Below, in pieces: positions 2,480 to 18,753 of a stretch of DNA of 29,254 nt. The stretch spans positions 1 through 29,254 of the IMG/VR virus record IMGVR_UViG_3300048504_000240. One strand, 5' to 3'. A program made the position numbers and the translations under genes. The notes below the pieces were generated by a model that did no database searches, had not been told where the DNA came from, and saw nothing but the letters and a program-made list of their open reading frames with translations. The stretch is from a virus. The number at the start of each line of letters is the position of its first letter. Position 1 is the first letter of the stretch.

Positions 2480-5400
2480 ATGTTTAACAATAAAGATTTA
2501 GGGCAATATATAAAAACAACTCTAGCTCAAGAATTACAAAAGTCTCAAATAGGGAACTTTGTAAAACAAAAAGGCGCACCAAAACTAATAGCAGAAGTGA
2601 ACAAAACAAAGATTGGCGAGAAACCAAAAACGGCAGATGGTATCGACATGGGACTACAAGTAGAACCCGGAGTTATCCCAATTGTTTATGGACATGTTGG
2701 TATGTCTAACACTCAGTTTGATTTAGGACAAAAGCCAAGTGATGTAGATGCAAAGTTCACAACACAAACAATTAAGATGGCTATATCAGAGGGTCCGATT
2801 AGAGGTGTTGCTACTAGACTAGATGATAATAGTATTTCTTTTTATCCTCCAGGTAATGCAACAGAAAATTTCAAAGCAGTTCTACTAAATGATTCATTTG
2901 TTATGGAAACAAATGGTGCTGTAAATTATAAAGATGTTAAGTTAGAAGTTACGCTAGGTGATGGAACAACTAACAAACAGACAGCAACTATTCAGTCAAC
3001 AAATCCCGTAACTGATCAAGAAATCGAAGCAGTAAATGACACTACAAACGACAAGCTACTAAATGACTTAGGTGATGTTACAGCGGCAAAAGGTGTTAAT
3101 AATGTTCTTTATTGGAATACATCAACAAATCGCTGGGAAGCTAAGTCTTTCAATGATCTACTAAATGAAGCAGGTGCAACTTATGATGGTGGCGCAGGCG
3201 GAACTGGCGGAGTTGGCGGAGATGGTGGTTCTGGTGGTTTAGGCGGAACTGGCGGAGTTGGCGCAGGCGATGGACAAGGCTTACGTTATACACAATACAA
3301 TCCACCACCAACTCACGTAGAAACACCTGACACATCTAAAGTAGAAACAGTAGTTACAGCACCAGCAGACCCAGGAACTACTGTAGGTAGCAATGGCGCC
3401 CCGTTACGAAACATCGGTTTGGCAACACCGTACTTTGAAACATCAATTACAAATGTTGACGAAAACATTGACGAGATTACTGTTAACACAGTATTCCCAG
3501 ATGGTATCTATAAAGAGATTATTACAACTACAACAGCATTAGATGGGGACACAATAACACTGTGTGGAACAGAAAGACCAATCGCTAACAGTGGTAACTT
3601 AAATTGTTTAACACCAAATGTAGAAGTATCAGCAGATGGTCAAACAGCGACAACTAAAACACGTGTAAATGGTAGTGTAACAGTATATGTTGTATTCACT
3701 ACAATTTTAGAAGATTGCGATAATCGTGAGTTTATTCTACACGAAGGCAGTTATCCTATATCAGCACTAAAGAATGGTAGATATACTGACTCACAATCGT
3801 TCTCACTAAACGCTATGAACGCAGGTTCAGATGCAATTGTTACAGGCGAGAATGCAGGAAAGCCACAATCTGGTGCGATTTCTGGAATACCAGATTGCAA
3901 TGCAACAGATGTAGAAAACTTTAACTTCAAGAATTTTGATTTAGAACAATATTTAAATACATATCCAAATCAAATTGTCCAAGCAGCATCAACTATTAAA
4001 GTATATGCGTGGATCGAAAATAGAGACACAGATGACGAATATAACATTTCTACGAATGCATATTTAAAATCTATTGAAGTTTGTGACACAATGGACACAT
4101 TCAATAATGGTTATAATGTTGGAACAACTTTAACAGCTCCATATGGTTTGTTAGCTCCAGATCACGAATATCAAAGAGAAGCATTCGGCGCTGACATGGA
4201 AACAGAAGCATATTCACTTAATAATGCACGTTGTGAGTCAACAGTAGTAAGTGGAAGTTATGATGATACGAAGAACCCAGACCCATTATTAGTATGGGAT
4301 TACACAACTCAAGGACAACCTGGAGGAAGTGGTAACGGTGGTGCGGCAGGAGCTATTGGATCAGGTGGTGCTGCAGGAACTTCAGGTTCAGTTTCAGTGC
4401 CAACACTCCCAGATATTCCAACAGCAGAAATGTCAGCAGATAGTTCTTACTCAGGTGATGGTGTTGCAGATACAGTTACACTGCCAAGCGTAGCAGTAAC
4501 AAACGCAAATACAAGTGCAGTAAATACACTTGTGATTTCAGTAGATAGTGGCACAGTAGAATGTGATGGTCAAAACTCTAGTAGTATAACACTTACAGGT
4601 GTTATTGCAAATCTACAAACAACACTAAACAGTGGGGTAACATATCAATCTACAACAGCTACAACTGGTGACGTAACAATTACATTCAACATTAGCTCAA
4701 GTGAAGGTAACTCACAAACAACTAGACAGATTAGAAGTGAAGCAGTTACAGAATATGTTGCACCAACATTTGAAATTACAGTTACAGGCACAAGTGGTTA
4801 TTTCAGATGCGAAACACTTACAAACAAATTCATTATGAATATGATTAATGGAAGTGGAACAACAGATGAAATTGCAGAACAAATCAAAGTTGCTATTAAC
4901 GATAAGACAGATGGCTCTCCAAACTGGACAGCGACAAGAAGTACTAACGTAGTTACAGTCACAGGACCAGATGCACTTGGTGCGAGTTATAATGGTGTGG
5001 AACCAAGCAATGGTGCAACATCAACTCCATTACTAGCGACAAATATCACAACAATTACAGATGGCGTATCACCAAACAGAACTACACAACCAAAACAAAA
5101 TACAAAGAATTTAAAATCTAAACTTCTACCTCCGTTAGCATTTACAAATCCTCTAACAGCAGGTGATGTTTCTTTTGCTCAACTTGCTTACAGACCAGAT
5201 CAAGAAGATGGTAACACAGATATTGCAGAGGTTGGATTTTATATAGCAGGCAGAATTGTTCAAGCACCAACAGAAGTATTAAGTAGTTTTACAGATTGGA
5301 AAAATGCAGGTTATACATCTACTCCAAGTATCGATCAGAACACAGCATGGATTTTCTTTGACTATCTAACAAACACAACATATGGTTTAGGTAATGATTT

Positions 5401-13274: not shown

Positions 13275-13560
13275 AGTCTTAGACATACCGAAAATGATGC
13301 GTGTTAAAGCATCACATATTAGAAACAGATCACGCATTCCAGTACGATCAAATGGAAGTACTATCAATAAAAACAAATGGGGTGGTTTGATTTTAGTTAA
13401 AGCAGGATTACCAAAAGAACAAGTTCGATTGATACCTGCTGGATCAGAACTTAAACTTTGTATACAAGACAAATCAGTATGGGAAATTTTCTTACCAGTA
13501 GAGTTTAAAAAAAGTAAAAAATTATTAGCAAAAAGACTTGACGCAATCGCATTTATGTGA
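13267..13560 (+). CDS. Hypothetical small basic protein
   Basis: Not recognised. I choose ATG 13267 (98 residues, MYEVLDIPKMM) over the in-frame ATG 13225 because GATGAGG ends six bases upstream and the eight-base overlap with the preceding gene suits translational coupling. The protein is Lys/Arg-rich, with short beta-like segments (WGGLILVKAGL, LKLCIQDKSVWEIFLPV) and a basic tail (FKKSKKLLAKRLDAIAF). It could be a compact single-domain fold. No membrane segment or known catalytic motif is visible. Confidence 0.55.
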   Translation: MYEVLDIPKMMRVKASHIRNRSRIPVRSNGSTINKNKWGGLILVKAGLPKEQVRLIPAGSELKLCIQDKSVWEIFLPVEFKKSKKLLAKRLDAIAFM

Positions 13561-13740
13561 TATACTGTTTATATAGTTTGATAAGTTTTTCTTGTTTCAT
13601 ATTTCTTATCAGCTTCATATCTTAGCTTTAAGCTAAATACTATTGTTAGAGACTAATATGGGGATACTAGTTTTTGACATTTTATATAAAAGATAGACTT
13701 GACACTATCTTTTATCTCCTGACTAAAAAGTTGATGTTTA
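13561..13740. other. Intergenic region with hairpins and a possible leader
   Basis: No convincing gene. It holds a late-motif relative (AGCTAAATA at 13631-13639), a small hairpin TTAGC/GCTAA at about 13622-13636, and a 12-codon open frame (13658-13696, MGILVFDILYKR). The stop of that frame lies inside the inverted repeat 13686-13715. The arrangement resembles a leader peptide plus hairpin ahead of the terminator at 13741, but nothing proves translation. Confidence 0.3.
13686..13715. repeat. Perfect 11-bp inverted repeat
   Basis: Arms ATAAAAGATAG and CTATCTTTTAT enclose the eight-base loop ACTTGACA. The loop holds a -35-like TTGACA, and another TTGACA lies 13 bases before the left arm. It may be an operator or an RNA hairpin ahead of the terminator; there is no U-run directly after it. 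Confidence 0.6.
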
Positions 13741-13787
13741 ATAGTCCTGCTAGAGTTTTCGAAGTTCTCTAGTGGGGCTATTTTTTT
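13741..13787 (+). terminator. Rho-independent terminator
   Basis: The stem is ATAGTCC-TG-CTAGAG against CTCTAG-TG-GGGCTAT (15 pairs including G-T wobbles), with loop TTTTCGAAGTT, followed by seven T. It separates the tail-side transcription unit from the promoter at 13790. Confidence 0.85.
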
Positions 13788-13789
13788 AC

Positions 13790-13818
13790 TTGACTCGAAT
13801 CGAATCATATGTTAGTAT
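13790..13818 (+). promoter_or_regulatory. Sigma70-like promoter with two GANTC sites
   Basis: TTGACT (13790-13795), a 17-base spacer holding GAATC twice (CGAATCGAATCA), then TAGTAT (13813-13818). TATAAT at 13816-13821 is an alternative -10 but with a 20-base spacer. Either way transcription would begin at or within a few bases of ATG 13825, implying a leaderless message or an RNA whose main product is not that peptide. Confidence 0.65.
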
Positions 13819-13824
13819 AATCAT

Positions 13825-14013
13825 ATGAGTGAAAACAAATATAAACAACTATCAAAAAAATATTATGGCACAAGTGACTTGTCTAAACTTAGCAGTCGTC
13901 AATTAAACAATTTGACGAACTGGATAACTAATACTAATCCAGATACAAAAGCAAGACAAAAAGGTCGCAAATACTCAGGCAACACTTACAGCAAAATCAA
14001 AAAAATCTTTTAG
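13825..14013 (+). CDS. Small basic protein, probably leaderless
   Basis: Not recognised. The 62-residue product is rich in Lys, Asn, Ser and Tyr and clearly basic (KYKQLSKKYYG, TKARQKGRKYSG, SKIKKIF), with a short helix-like middle (SRQLNNLTNWITN). The ATG lies four to seven bases after the putative -10 element, so there is no room for a Shine-Dalgarno sequence; no alternative in-frame start with a ribosome binding site exists. It may be a DNA- or RNA-binding early protein. The alternative is that the promoter makes a non-coding RNA continuing into the structured region at 14014 and that this frame is fortuitous. Confidence 0.5.
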   Translation: MSENKYKQLSKKYYGTSDLSKLSSRQLNNLTNWITNTNPDTKARQKGRKYSGNTYSKIKKIF

Positions 14014-14436
14014 GCTAATATACATCTCTTAACATCAAGCACAATAGCAAGGTATGCTGAATCCCGTGGAAAAGTCATATGAGAGTATGAACACGCAACA
14101 CAACTAGAATAACTGAATGAAATAGTGAGACCTGAGACAAGACTTGGTCGCAATAGTTGTAGATAGTAAAGTGCTTCTATCACACACGATGGCTATAAAA
14201 GTGTTCTCGTCACGCGGCACTATAAAATAAACTGGAGTAAGGTGGTCAAGTCCAAAGACCGTTAGCTTAACATCGTACTACTTCTAAAGAGTAGTGAAGA
14301 AAACTTACAGACCTAGATGACTTCCCATTGAGAAGATATCTATAGGTTTCCTGAAAACAGGTGACCTATGGCTAACCCTTGAGAATATATATAATGTATA
14401 TTATATGTATTTGTTAGCCATATATCAATATATTAC
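14014..14436 (+). ncRNA. Candidate structured RNA, no coding frame
   Basis: About 420 bases without a credible gene but with many complementary segments. Local hairpins: GGTC/GACC (14244-14260), ACTACT/AGTAGT (about 14277-14295), CTTC/GAAG (about 14321-14335) and ATAGGT-CCTG/CAGG-ACCTAT with an AAAA loop (14342-14368). Longer-range pairs: ACAACTA/TAGTTGT (about 14100/14155), AAGTCAT/ATGACTT (about 14070/14317) and ACCTAGAT/ATCTATAGGT (about 14310/14347). TATGGCTAAC (14367-14376) can pair either forward with GTTAGCCATA (14413-14422) or, in part, backward with GTTAGC (14261-14266), so two exclusive folds exist. The 3' half has an order of helices and an AAGATAT element reminiscent of group I ribozyme cores, but I could not find P4-P6 or exons. 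It would be transcribed from the promoter at 13790. Confidence 0.4.
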
Positions 14437-14465
14437 TTGACACGAATCAGTAATCCATATATAAT
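14437..14465 (+). promoter_or_regulatory. Consensus sigma70 promoter with GANTC in the spacer
   Basis: TTGACA (14437-14442), 17 bases, TATAAT (14460-14465): both boxes match the consensus exactly. The spacer opens with CGAATCAG, a GANTC site. It drives the 38-codon gene and the DNA methyltransferase. Confidence 0.88.
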
Positions 14466-14471
14466 AAAATC

Positions 14472-14577
14472 TGAATGAGCAAACAAGAATGTTATGAGTG
14501 AAACGAATAACATGAATGTTTACGAGTTCAGTGATTGCTTTAGCAATCATTAAATTATAACAACAAGTGAGATATAA
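14472..14577 (+). promoter_or_regulatory. Leader of the methyltransferase transcript with hairpin and short frames
   Basis: From the predicted transcription start to ATG 14578 the leader holds a hairpin TGATTGC/GCAATCA with a TTTA loop (14532-14549). Two short open frames are present: 14475-14501 (8 codons) and 14494-14553 (19 codons). The end of the second is the hairpin itself. There is no U-run. It could serve translational control or RNA stability. Confidence 0.4.
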
Positions 14578-14694
14578 ATGACTTACAAACAATTTAACAA
14601 AGAACTAAGCAAATTAGATGATGATGATTGGGAATCAATATCAATCTTATTTGATATGAATAAGGACCATTATTGGAGATTGATCAATGAGTAA
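14578..14694 (+). CDS. Small acidic protein encoded ahead of the methyltransferase
   Basis: A 38-codon frame, MTYKQFNKELSKLDDDDWES and onward, ending WRLINE. It overlaps the methyltransferase start by eight bases (AATGAGTAA), the same coupling geometry used by other overlapping genes here. The product is helical by composition, with a DDDDW acidic patch. The upstream ribosome site is weak (AGTGAG). GGAG at 14675-14678, inside this frame, is the ribosome site of the methyltransferase. It is either a small protein or a translation-coupling leader; not recognised. Confidence 0.5.
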   Translation: MTYKQFNKELSKLDDDDWESISILFDMNKDHYWRLINE

Positions 14695-16135
14695 GAACGA
14701 AAAAGAAATGAAAAAATGGCAAGTAATAAACGGTAATAATATTGATATTCTCAAAACATATGAAGATAATACATTCGATAGTATCGTCACTGATCCACCA
14801 TACGGGATTGCATTCTTAGGTAAAGATTGGGATAACGACACTGGTGCAATGGAGACATGGGAAGAATGTTTTAGAGTACTCAAGCCAGGAGGACATATCT
14901 TAGCGTTCTCAGCGGCAAGAACTTATCATCACTTAGCAACTAACATAGAGATGGCAGGCTTTGAGATTAGAGATCAACTTATGTGGTTGTATGGTTCAGG
15001 CTTCCCAAAAGCGCAAGACATTGGTAAAGCAATAGACAAGCGTGAAGGAAAGAAAGACCCCAACTATGGTTCTAATAAACATTCAGGTATTGTTACCGAG
15101 GGTGATGGTAGAAAAGATTACAGATGTTCAGTTTGCAACAAGACTATTGGAAGTTGGGTAAAAGATTGTAAAGAAGAAGATTGCGGACAAAAATACAACT
15201 ATCAAACAGATTTAGCACAACAATGGGCAGGATGGAAGACAGCACTAAAACCCGCACACGAACCAATCGTTATGGCAAGAAAACCGTTCAAGGGTTCAGC
15301 AATAGACAATGTATTAGAACACGGAACTGGTGCGTTAAACATTGATGCGAGTAGAGTTACATTCTCAGAGAATGACGATCCTCGTATTGGTAAAGGTTAT
15401 GAACATCAAGCATCAGCACAAGTTATGCCGGGACAATCTAAAAAGGGATTGGGTCATCAACAAAATCTTTATCCTAACGATACAGGTCGCTTCCCATCTA
15501 ATGTTATTATGGATGAAGAAGCAGGAGCAATCTTAGATAAACAAGCACCAAAGACAGGCAACGCTTCATCATCAAAGAGAACTAAAACAGGTATGACGGG
15601 AACAGGTGCTTCGCTACAATGGCATAAATCAGCAGGCGAAAGCAATGGTATTTCTGATGGTCTAAGTGGTGCTTCTAAGTTCTTCTATTGTCCGAAAGTC
15701 AGCAGAGCAGAGCGTCATGTAGGGTTTGAGAAACCACCAGAACCATTATTCGGTGATGTAAAGGGATGCTATGATGATGGCAAACGCTTTGCGGCAAAGC
15801 ACCAAGAATTACAATCAAATAAACGACCAAGAGGCGAAGCATTTGGTGATGGTAATCTATTAAAAGATGCAACTAAATCAACAGGCAACAATCACCCAAC
15901 GGTCAAGCCAGTAGAGTTGATGAAGTATTTGGTTCGCTTAGTCACACCAGCAGGCGGCAAAGTATTAGATCCGTTTAACGGCAGTGGTTCAACAGGTATG
16001 GCTTGTGTAGAACTTGACTATGAATATGTAGGTTGCGAACTTGACCCAGAGTACGTAGAGATTGCAAACAATCGTATCTCAGCATGGGAAAAGAAGTTCG
16101 ATACACCAGCAAATAATTTATTCGAAGACACTTGA
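14687..16135 (+). CDS. Beta-class DNA amino-methyltransferase (N6-adenine or N4-cytosine)
   Basis: Product 482 residues. Catalytic motif IV is VTDPPYG (DPPY at residues 36-39) in the N-terminal part, and the S-adenosylmethionine-binding motif LDPFNGSGSTG (428-437) is in the C-terminal part, preceded by HPTVKP (403-408, motif X). This order defines the beta class, which includes CcrM. DPPY indicates exocyclic amino methylation. Between them lie SGFPKAQDIGKAIDK (104-118), a possible zinc ribbon (Cys147, Cys150, Cys161, Cys166) and a long region (about 200-400) that should hold the target-recognition part. It is longer than CcrM (about 360 residues) and lacks its C-terminal domain, so target specificity is unknown. 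No restriction endonuclease partner is seen. The stop codon lies inside the -35 box of the next promoter. Likely roles are protection against host restriction or epigenetic control of phage promoters. Confidence 0.9.
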   Translation: MSKNEKEMKKWQVINGNNIDILKTYEDNTFDSIVTDPPYGIAFLGKDWDNDTGAMETWEECFRVLKPGGHILAFSAARTYHHLATNIEMAGFEIRDQLMWLYGSGFPKAQDIGKAIDKREGKKDPNYGSNKHSGIVTEGDGRKDYRCSVCNKTIGSWVKDCKEEDCGQKYNYQTDLAQQWAGWKTALKPAHEPIVMARKPFKGSAIDNVLEHGTGALNIDASRVTFSENDDPRIGKGYEHQASAQVMPGQSKKGLGHQQNLYPNDTGRFPSNVIMDEEAGAILDKQAPKTGNASSSKRTKTGMTGTGASLQWHKSAGESNGISDGLSGASKFFYCPKVSRAERHVGFEKPPEPLFGDVKGCYDDGKRFAAKHQELQSNKRPRGEAFGDGNLLKDATKSTGNNHPTVKPVELMKYLVRLVTPAGGKVLDPFNGSGSTGMACVELDYEYVGCELDPEYVEIANNRISAWEKKFDTPANNLFEDT

Positions 16136-18744: not shown

Positions 18745-18753
18745 GTCTTTTAT

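Follow-up and report, generated by a model that had tools for sequence, protein, structure and literature searches.

Only a few groups of phages are known to carry large structured RNAs whose function is unknown. ROOL is one of these RNAs, and assembly into a homo-oligomeric cage is a feature of GOLLD. The latter is a large noncoding RNA encoded by phages, in which the 3' part is conserved and the 5' part variable, and its function is unknown (PMC12286853). In organisation it is the nearest known system to the locus described here, which belongs to a proposed family with a 3' domain recurring in seven phages and 5' parts that have little sequence in common. The family differs from GOLLD in its length, which is 450-700 nt compared with often more than 800 nt, and in its 3' part, which is a simple two-hairpin module. 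With ROOL it shares the character of a large structured phage RNA; it is unlike both in that no Rfam match was obtained in the window (i.e., the whole stretch of 29,254 nucleotides that was analysed), in the related loci L131, L100, L118 and L133, or in phage DSL-LC06, and in that the window contains no tRNA gene. The order of promoter, structured RNA and terminator is also that of small phage RNAs ending in intrinsic terminators, and cassettes of this kind adjoin the locus at 13567-13790; members of the present family are, however, longer, and their conserved domain contains tandem G·A steps and a UGAAA-type loop. The family is filed as an unclassified new family within the known kind of structured phage noncoding RNAs.

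The window is a linear viral IMG/VR record of 29,254 bases which encodes tail, terminase and portal proteins. Its terminase is closest to that of DSL-LC06 (51% identity), followed by those of Pelagibacter phages, and the nearest relatives of its portal protein are found in Pelagibacter phages and DSL-LC06, the latter being a complete circular phage genome of 29.8 kb from a lake (GenBank OR003941). The locus is flanked by the tail module on one side and a methyltransferase/HNH module on the other, and by the ORF criterion applied, 14014-14686 is the sole gap of more than 300 nt in the window. A preceding reading made from the letters alone (the sequence-only reading) had described 14014-14436 as gene-free; this was borne out, as the + strand has no ORF of at least 50 amino acids and the codon bias is not coding-like. 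Upstream, a 62-amino acid ORF, perhaps leaderless, occupies 13825-14013 (+ strand); its codon score is mildly coding-like (+0.15 in frame versus -0.30 and -0.96 in the other frames), it has no PHROG or Pfam match and no tblastn relative, and it is possibly a gene and possibly part of the RNA. It is preceded by a promoter-like site from the consensus scan, TTGACT-17-TAGTAT (13790-13818, + strand), which possibly serves the whole locus. For the neighbouring 108-amino acid ORF no relatives were found. Downstream lies the gene of an N6/N4 DNA methyltransferase (14687-16135, + strand; PF01555, E 4.7e-32), relatives of which are located downstream of the RNA locus in L100, L137, L131, L118 and L133; a 38-amino acid ORF is located at 14578-14694.

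The conserved RNA domain at 14471-14531 (+ strand) is defined by the covariance model R1, by its folding z-score and by covariation. It is composed of the outer stem CTGAAT/GTTCAG, a GAG/CGA step, the CAAACA/TGTTTA stem, the ATGTTAT/ATAACAT stem and a GAG-UGAAA-CGA cap, and the stretch 14466-14552 has a folding z of -4.7. The general plan comprises, in the lower half, an outer stem of 6 bp, a tandem G·A step of the GAG/CGA type and a middle stem of 5-6 bp, and in the upper half an apical stem of 6-9 bp, a second GAG/CGA (or GAA/TGA) step and the UGAAA loop, which is replaced by UUUA in L131. Hairpin 2 (TGATTGC-TTTA-GCAATCA; 14532-14549, + strand) abuts the domain, with pairing probabilities of about 1.0 for the inner pairs and 0.8 for the outermost one. 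A second hairpin at 0-2 nt past the outer stem is found in six cases, namely the window, L100, L137, L131, L133 and L223; in L118 a hairpin forms at this position when the stretch is folded locally, on its own. The second hairpin is terminator-like in L100 (GGGTCTT-AAGACCC-TTTTAT) and in DSL-LC06 (GGACAGCTAGCTGTCC-TTTTTT), L118 and L133 have an additional hairpin with a U run, and hairpin 2 of the window is without a good U run. In the window, the two hairpins (14471-14549) were first spotted by eye and then found by the model. The "new phage RNA" which the sequence-only reading had considered is supported, albeit with its best-conserved part just outside the 14014-14436 region for which it had been proposed. 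Two close GGGTTGAGTGAAAC hairpins resembling the apical part of the domain were also seen in L191 (Pseudoalteromonas) at 220-251 and 486-565, where the matches are weak (E 0.87 and 0.026).

Membership was assessed with three covariance models. R1 was built from L100 and L137 only, leaving out the window and four other members. With filters off, the domain is its top match in the window (27.5 bits, E 4e-4; runner-up 14.6 bits), and the E-value is 0.0056 when 382 kb are searched; R1 also finds L131 (E 4e-9) as well as L118 and L133 (E 0.07 each). All four matches (L131, the window, L118 and L133) lie in stretches devoid of genes, with the same methyltransferase nearby. R2 was built from six sequences (L100, L137, the window, L131, L118 and L133), and its top match in DSL-LC06, at 1176-1269, falls inside a 755-nt gene-free annotation gap (573-1327) and beside a perfect terminator. 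When R3, built from all seven members, was run on the fetched loci (about 1.08 Mb), only these seven came out at E<1; in whole records it found little beyond them, the additional weak matches having E 0.07 and 0.33. The covariation in homologues that the sequence-only reading had named as a check was obtained for 14471-14549 rather than for its own region: in the model-fitted alignment of the seven phages, both sides have changed in 18 of 20 pairs and 92.7% of cells are paired, the outer, middle and apical stems all carrying compensatory changes. None of 500 shuffles reaches any of five measures, and slid controls are 26-40% paired. Since the alignment was fitted to model and structure (A7, A8), covariation is taken as supportive and not as independent evidence; five of the seven aligned sequences had no part in building R1. 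Pattern searches yielded little. The T-loop pattern had 12 matches among viral contigs, all of them spurious except L153, L154 and L158, and 50 matches in 84,980 genomes, which is about the number estimated for chance and includes no convincing member; the TTAGGTGTTT pattern gave no new members, L165 and L166 being chance matches. The gene-free, structured-looking stretches near the methyltransferase in L102, L106, L144 and L149 are not matched by the model. Large gene-free stretches in the methyltransferase-linked contigs L102/L103, L106/L107, L144 and L149 may represent other RNA families in the same slot; folding z is -4.3 for L102, while L106 (-2.9) and parts of the remaining ones are weaker.

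In the relatives, the locus is probably a transcription unit of about 450-700 nt with little, if any, coding capacity, located between tail genes and nuclease/methyltransferase genes. The domain forms the 3' end of this noncoding stretch in the same genomic slot, also in DSL-LC06, and several members are terminator-ended. L131, the methyltransferase of which is about 53% identical to that of the window in the best segment, matches the window DNA at 79% over 77 bases that cover the upstream gene's end and promoter; its slot holds a 490-nt gene-free, RNA-like stretch with a folding z of -4.2, the 3' part of which is 74% identical to L100 over 167 nt, and L137 contains the same hairpin string. 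The RNA of DSL-LC06 has a folding z of -4.8 and is unannotated in GenBank OR003941; the terms non-coding and ncRNA are absent from the paper on this phage (PMC10611076). Upstream of the domain, the 5' parts of the members form differing hairpins and share little sequence, and what L100 and the window have in common by eye is an AAAA-loop hairpin followed by a hairpin starting with TGGCT. In L100, L131 and L137 the sequence has promoter-like sites ahead of the locus.

For 14014-14436, the sequence-only reading had considered a possible RNA with two exclusive folds and, in the 3' half, possibly a derived or degenerate group I ribozyme. All segments on which it drew exist, i.e., GCTAAC at 14371, GTTAGC at 14261 and 14413, AAGATAT at 14333, AAGTCAT at 14072 with ATGACTT at 14317, and ACCTA at 14311 with TAGGT at 14343. 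Complementary segments are only slightly more numerous than in shuffles, with 14 pairs of 7-mers against a shuffle mean of 7.6; 31 of 500 shuffles reach this number. Of the two folds of GCTAAC at 14371, only the downstream helix with GTTAGC is well supported in the folding model (p about 1.0), the upstream pairing having a probability of 0.0 in the four contexts folded. A switching RNA would require two alternative helices that are both substantially populated or conserved, and with GCTAAC pairing downstream only in the partition-function ensemble, the switch was rejected. When compared with shuffled sequence, the region as a whole folds weakly (z -1.8). Only 14313-14436 contributes a signal (z -5.3, reached by 0 of 300 shuffles), which is due to three consecutive local hairpins on the + strand: hairpin A (TAGAT..CTTC/GAAG..ATCTA; 14314-14342; inner pairs p at least 0.96, outermost 0.60-0.66), hairpin B (GGT..CCTG-AAAA-CAGG..ACC; 14345-14366; CCTG/CAGG p about 0.99) and hairpin C (ATGGCTAAC/GTTAGCCAT with an AT-rich inner stem; 14368-14421; pairs p about 1.0). 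The zone of hairpin B (14340-14370) has a folding z of -4.35, that of hairpin C (14362-14424) of -5.95, and a loop comparable to that of hairpin B, containing AAAA, is found upstream of the domain in L100 (2249-2285). The remainder, 14014-14310, behaves like shuffled sequence (z +0.6 for 14014-14200, +0.9 for 14100-14310). By these sub-region values, the gene-free 5' part at 14014-14312 (+ strand) is without a folding signal of its own, and it has no blastn or tblastx relative among the loci fetched. With the region as query, blastn against phages and plasmids produced short chance matches only, and the exact core pattern had no match in viral contigs.

That this region is a derived or degenerate group I ribozyme is extremely improbable. 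The complementary segments are nested, as had been pointed out, and the short string ACAGACCTA...AAGATAT may resemble the R/S elements of group I introns. Nesting in the order of P3, P8 and P7 is, however, similarly found in 47% of dinucleotide shuffles. The 7-bp "P3" has a probability of at most 0.01 and "P7" one of 0.05-0.33, being outcompeted by hairpins A and B; hairpin A takes up the very bases in which P3, P8 and the S element had been placed, and the "P7" strand favours a local hairpin. The Rfam covariance-model search, which had been suggested as a check, gave no relevant match: there was none in the whole window at gathering scores, and between 13780 and 14700 at E 10 the one match was to an irrelevant snoRNA model. 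By the same method a group I intron in a related phage (L082, record G022) scored 73.5 bits. The region thus lacks a match to the model of the group I catalytic intron (RF00028), and its core helices are absent from the ensemble. Among viral contigs, the R/S-like pattern ACAGACCTAGATGA...AAGATAT has only two matches, both in protein-coding DNA; no intron boundaries or exons were found around the region, nor any protein similarity on either flank that an intron would split. The ribozyme and the switch were rejected on the strength of pair probabilities, the nesting in shuffles, the Rfam result with its positive control and the coding nature of the pattern matches. As this case shows, fortuitous complementarity can be taken for a ribozyme when only raw sequence is read, with the conserved RNA beginning right beside it. 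As a separate observation, the phage with the clear group I intron (L082, 73.5 bits) has a phrog_7595 protein in common.

Summarizing the evidence, it is somewhat more probable than not that the window holds a member of an undescribed family of phage noncoding RNAs which is absent from Rfam; this is based on conservation, covariation, common location, terminators in relatives and little coding capacity. The more specific reading is that DSL-LC06-like and related aquatic phages have a novel class of large noncoding RNA (450-700 nt) with GOLLD-like organisation, unrelated sequence and structure, and use in trans during infection; it is put forward tentatively, as somewhat less than an even chance. 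Against a noncoding RNA family stand the ORFs of 84 amino acids in L137 and 48 amino acids in L223 inside the span, the poor U run of hairpin 2 in the window, the little sequence common to the 5' parts, and the matches of L223, L118 and L133, which were weak at first detection. The main rival in the window is a cis-acting 5' leader, because transcription from a perfect sigma-70-type promoter (TTGACA-17-TATAAT; 14437-14465, + strand; all 12 consensus positions matched) would be expected to start at about 14472, where the conserved domain begins. Transcripts from it would begin with the two hairpins, which would stabilise or regulate the mRNA of the 38-amino acid ORF and the methyltransferase, in line with the methyltransferase ORF that directly follows the domain in L100 and L137. 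In L118, L133 and DSL-LC06, however, a terminator comes after the domain, accompanied in at least L118 and DSL-LC06 by a new promoter, the methyltransferase is 2-3 kb away in L118 and L133, and in L131 the domain is followed by another promoter and gene; the leader is considered unlikely. With the consensus promoter immediately before the domain, the module of the window may be either a short RNA or the 5' end of the methyltransferase mRNA, and since this promoter separates the domain from 14014-14436, one RNA spanning 14437 (i.e., hairpins at 14313-14424 plus the domain) is at most a possibility.

A DNA-level element, such as a replication origin or the site of a replication-priming RNA in a small phage in which no replication genes were recognised, is improbable. 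The locus is gene-free and AT-rich, and the proteins searched included none recognisable as a replication protein, but in neither DSL-LC06 nor the window does cumulative GC skew reach an extreme at the locus, no cluster of DnaA boxes was seen, and compensatory changes together with conserved loop bases point to an RNA rather than a DNA element. Still less probable is spacer DNA with chance hairpins. The 5' 300 nt, having neither folding signal nor relatives, would fit such a spacer, which is possible for 14014-14312; for 14471-14549 it is disfavoured, as two stretches have z-scores of -5.3 and -4.7 and homologues located at this locus covary.

If the locus encodes a noncoding RNA, its transcription would be driven by a phage promoter. 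The 5' part evolves fast, while the 3' end is conserved and consists of the hairpin with G·A steps, which usually has a UGAAA loop, and of the second hairpin immediately after it. This 3' module would fold during transcription and would end and protect the transcript, with the second hairpin serving as intrinsic terminator in several members. A protein or a second RNA would dock at the capped hairpin, by way of which the RNA is proposed to act in trans early in infection; its transcription, its action in trans and its binding partner are thereby presumed. A further family would in this way be anchored in a complete GenBank genome, that of DSL-LC06 (OR003941), in which it is unannotated, and would offer a defined, testable module made up of a terminator-like hairpin and, before it, a 60-nt hairpin that contains tandem G·A steps.

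The promoter at 14437-14465 and the site at 13790-13818 have a CGAATC element in common with other promoter-like sites of the phage; sites with this element were noted at 13790, 14437 and 16131 of the window and, on the minus strand, near 18750, 19010 and 27900. The element, which in places forms the palindrome CGAATGATTCG, suggests an operator for a phage regulator. At 13567-13790 a separate small-RNA cassette (folding z -4.6) follows the promoter TTGACG-17-TATACT (13538-13566) and ends in a long terminator stem with a T run at about 13742-13787. Similar cassettes are found in L131 at 1012-1210 (z -7.2) and about 1245-1380, and similar-looking ones in L095 at about 3170-3400 and 3740-3905.
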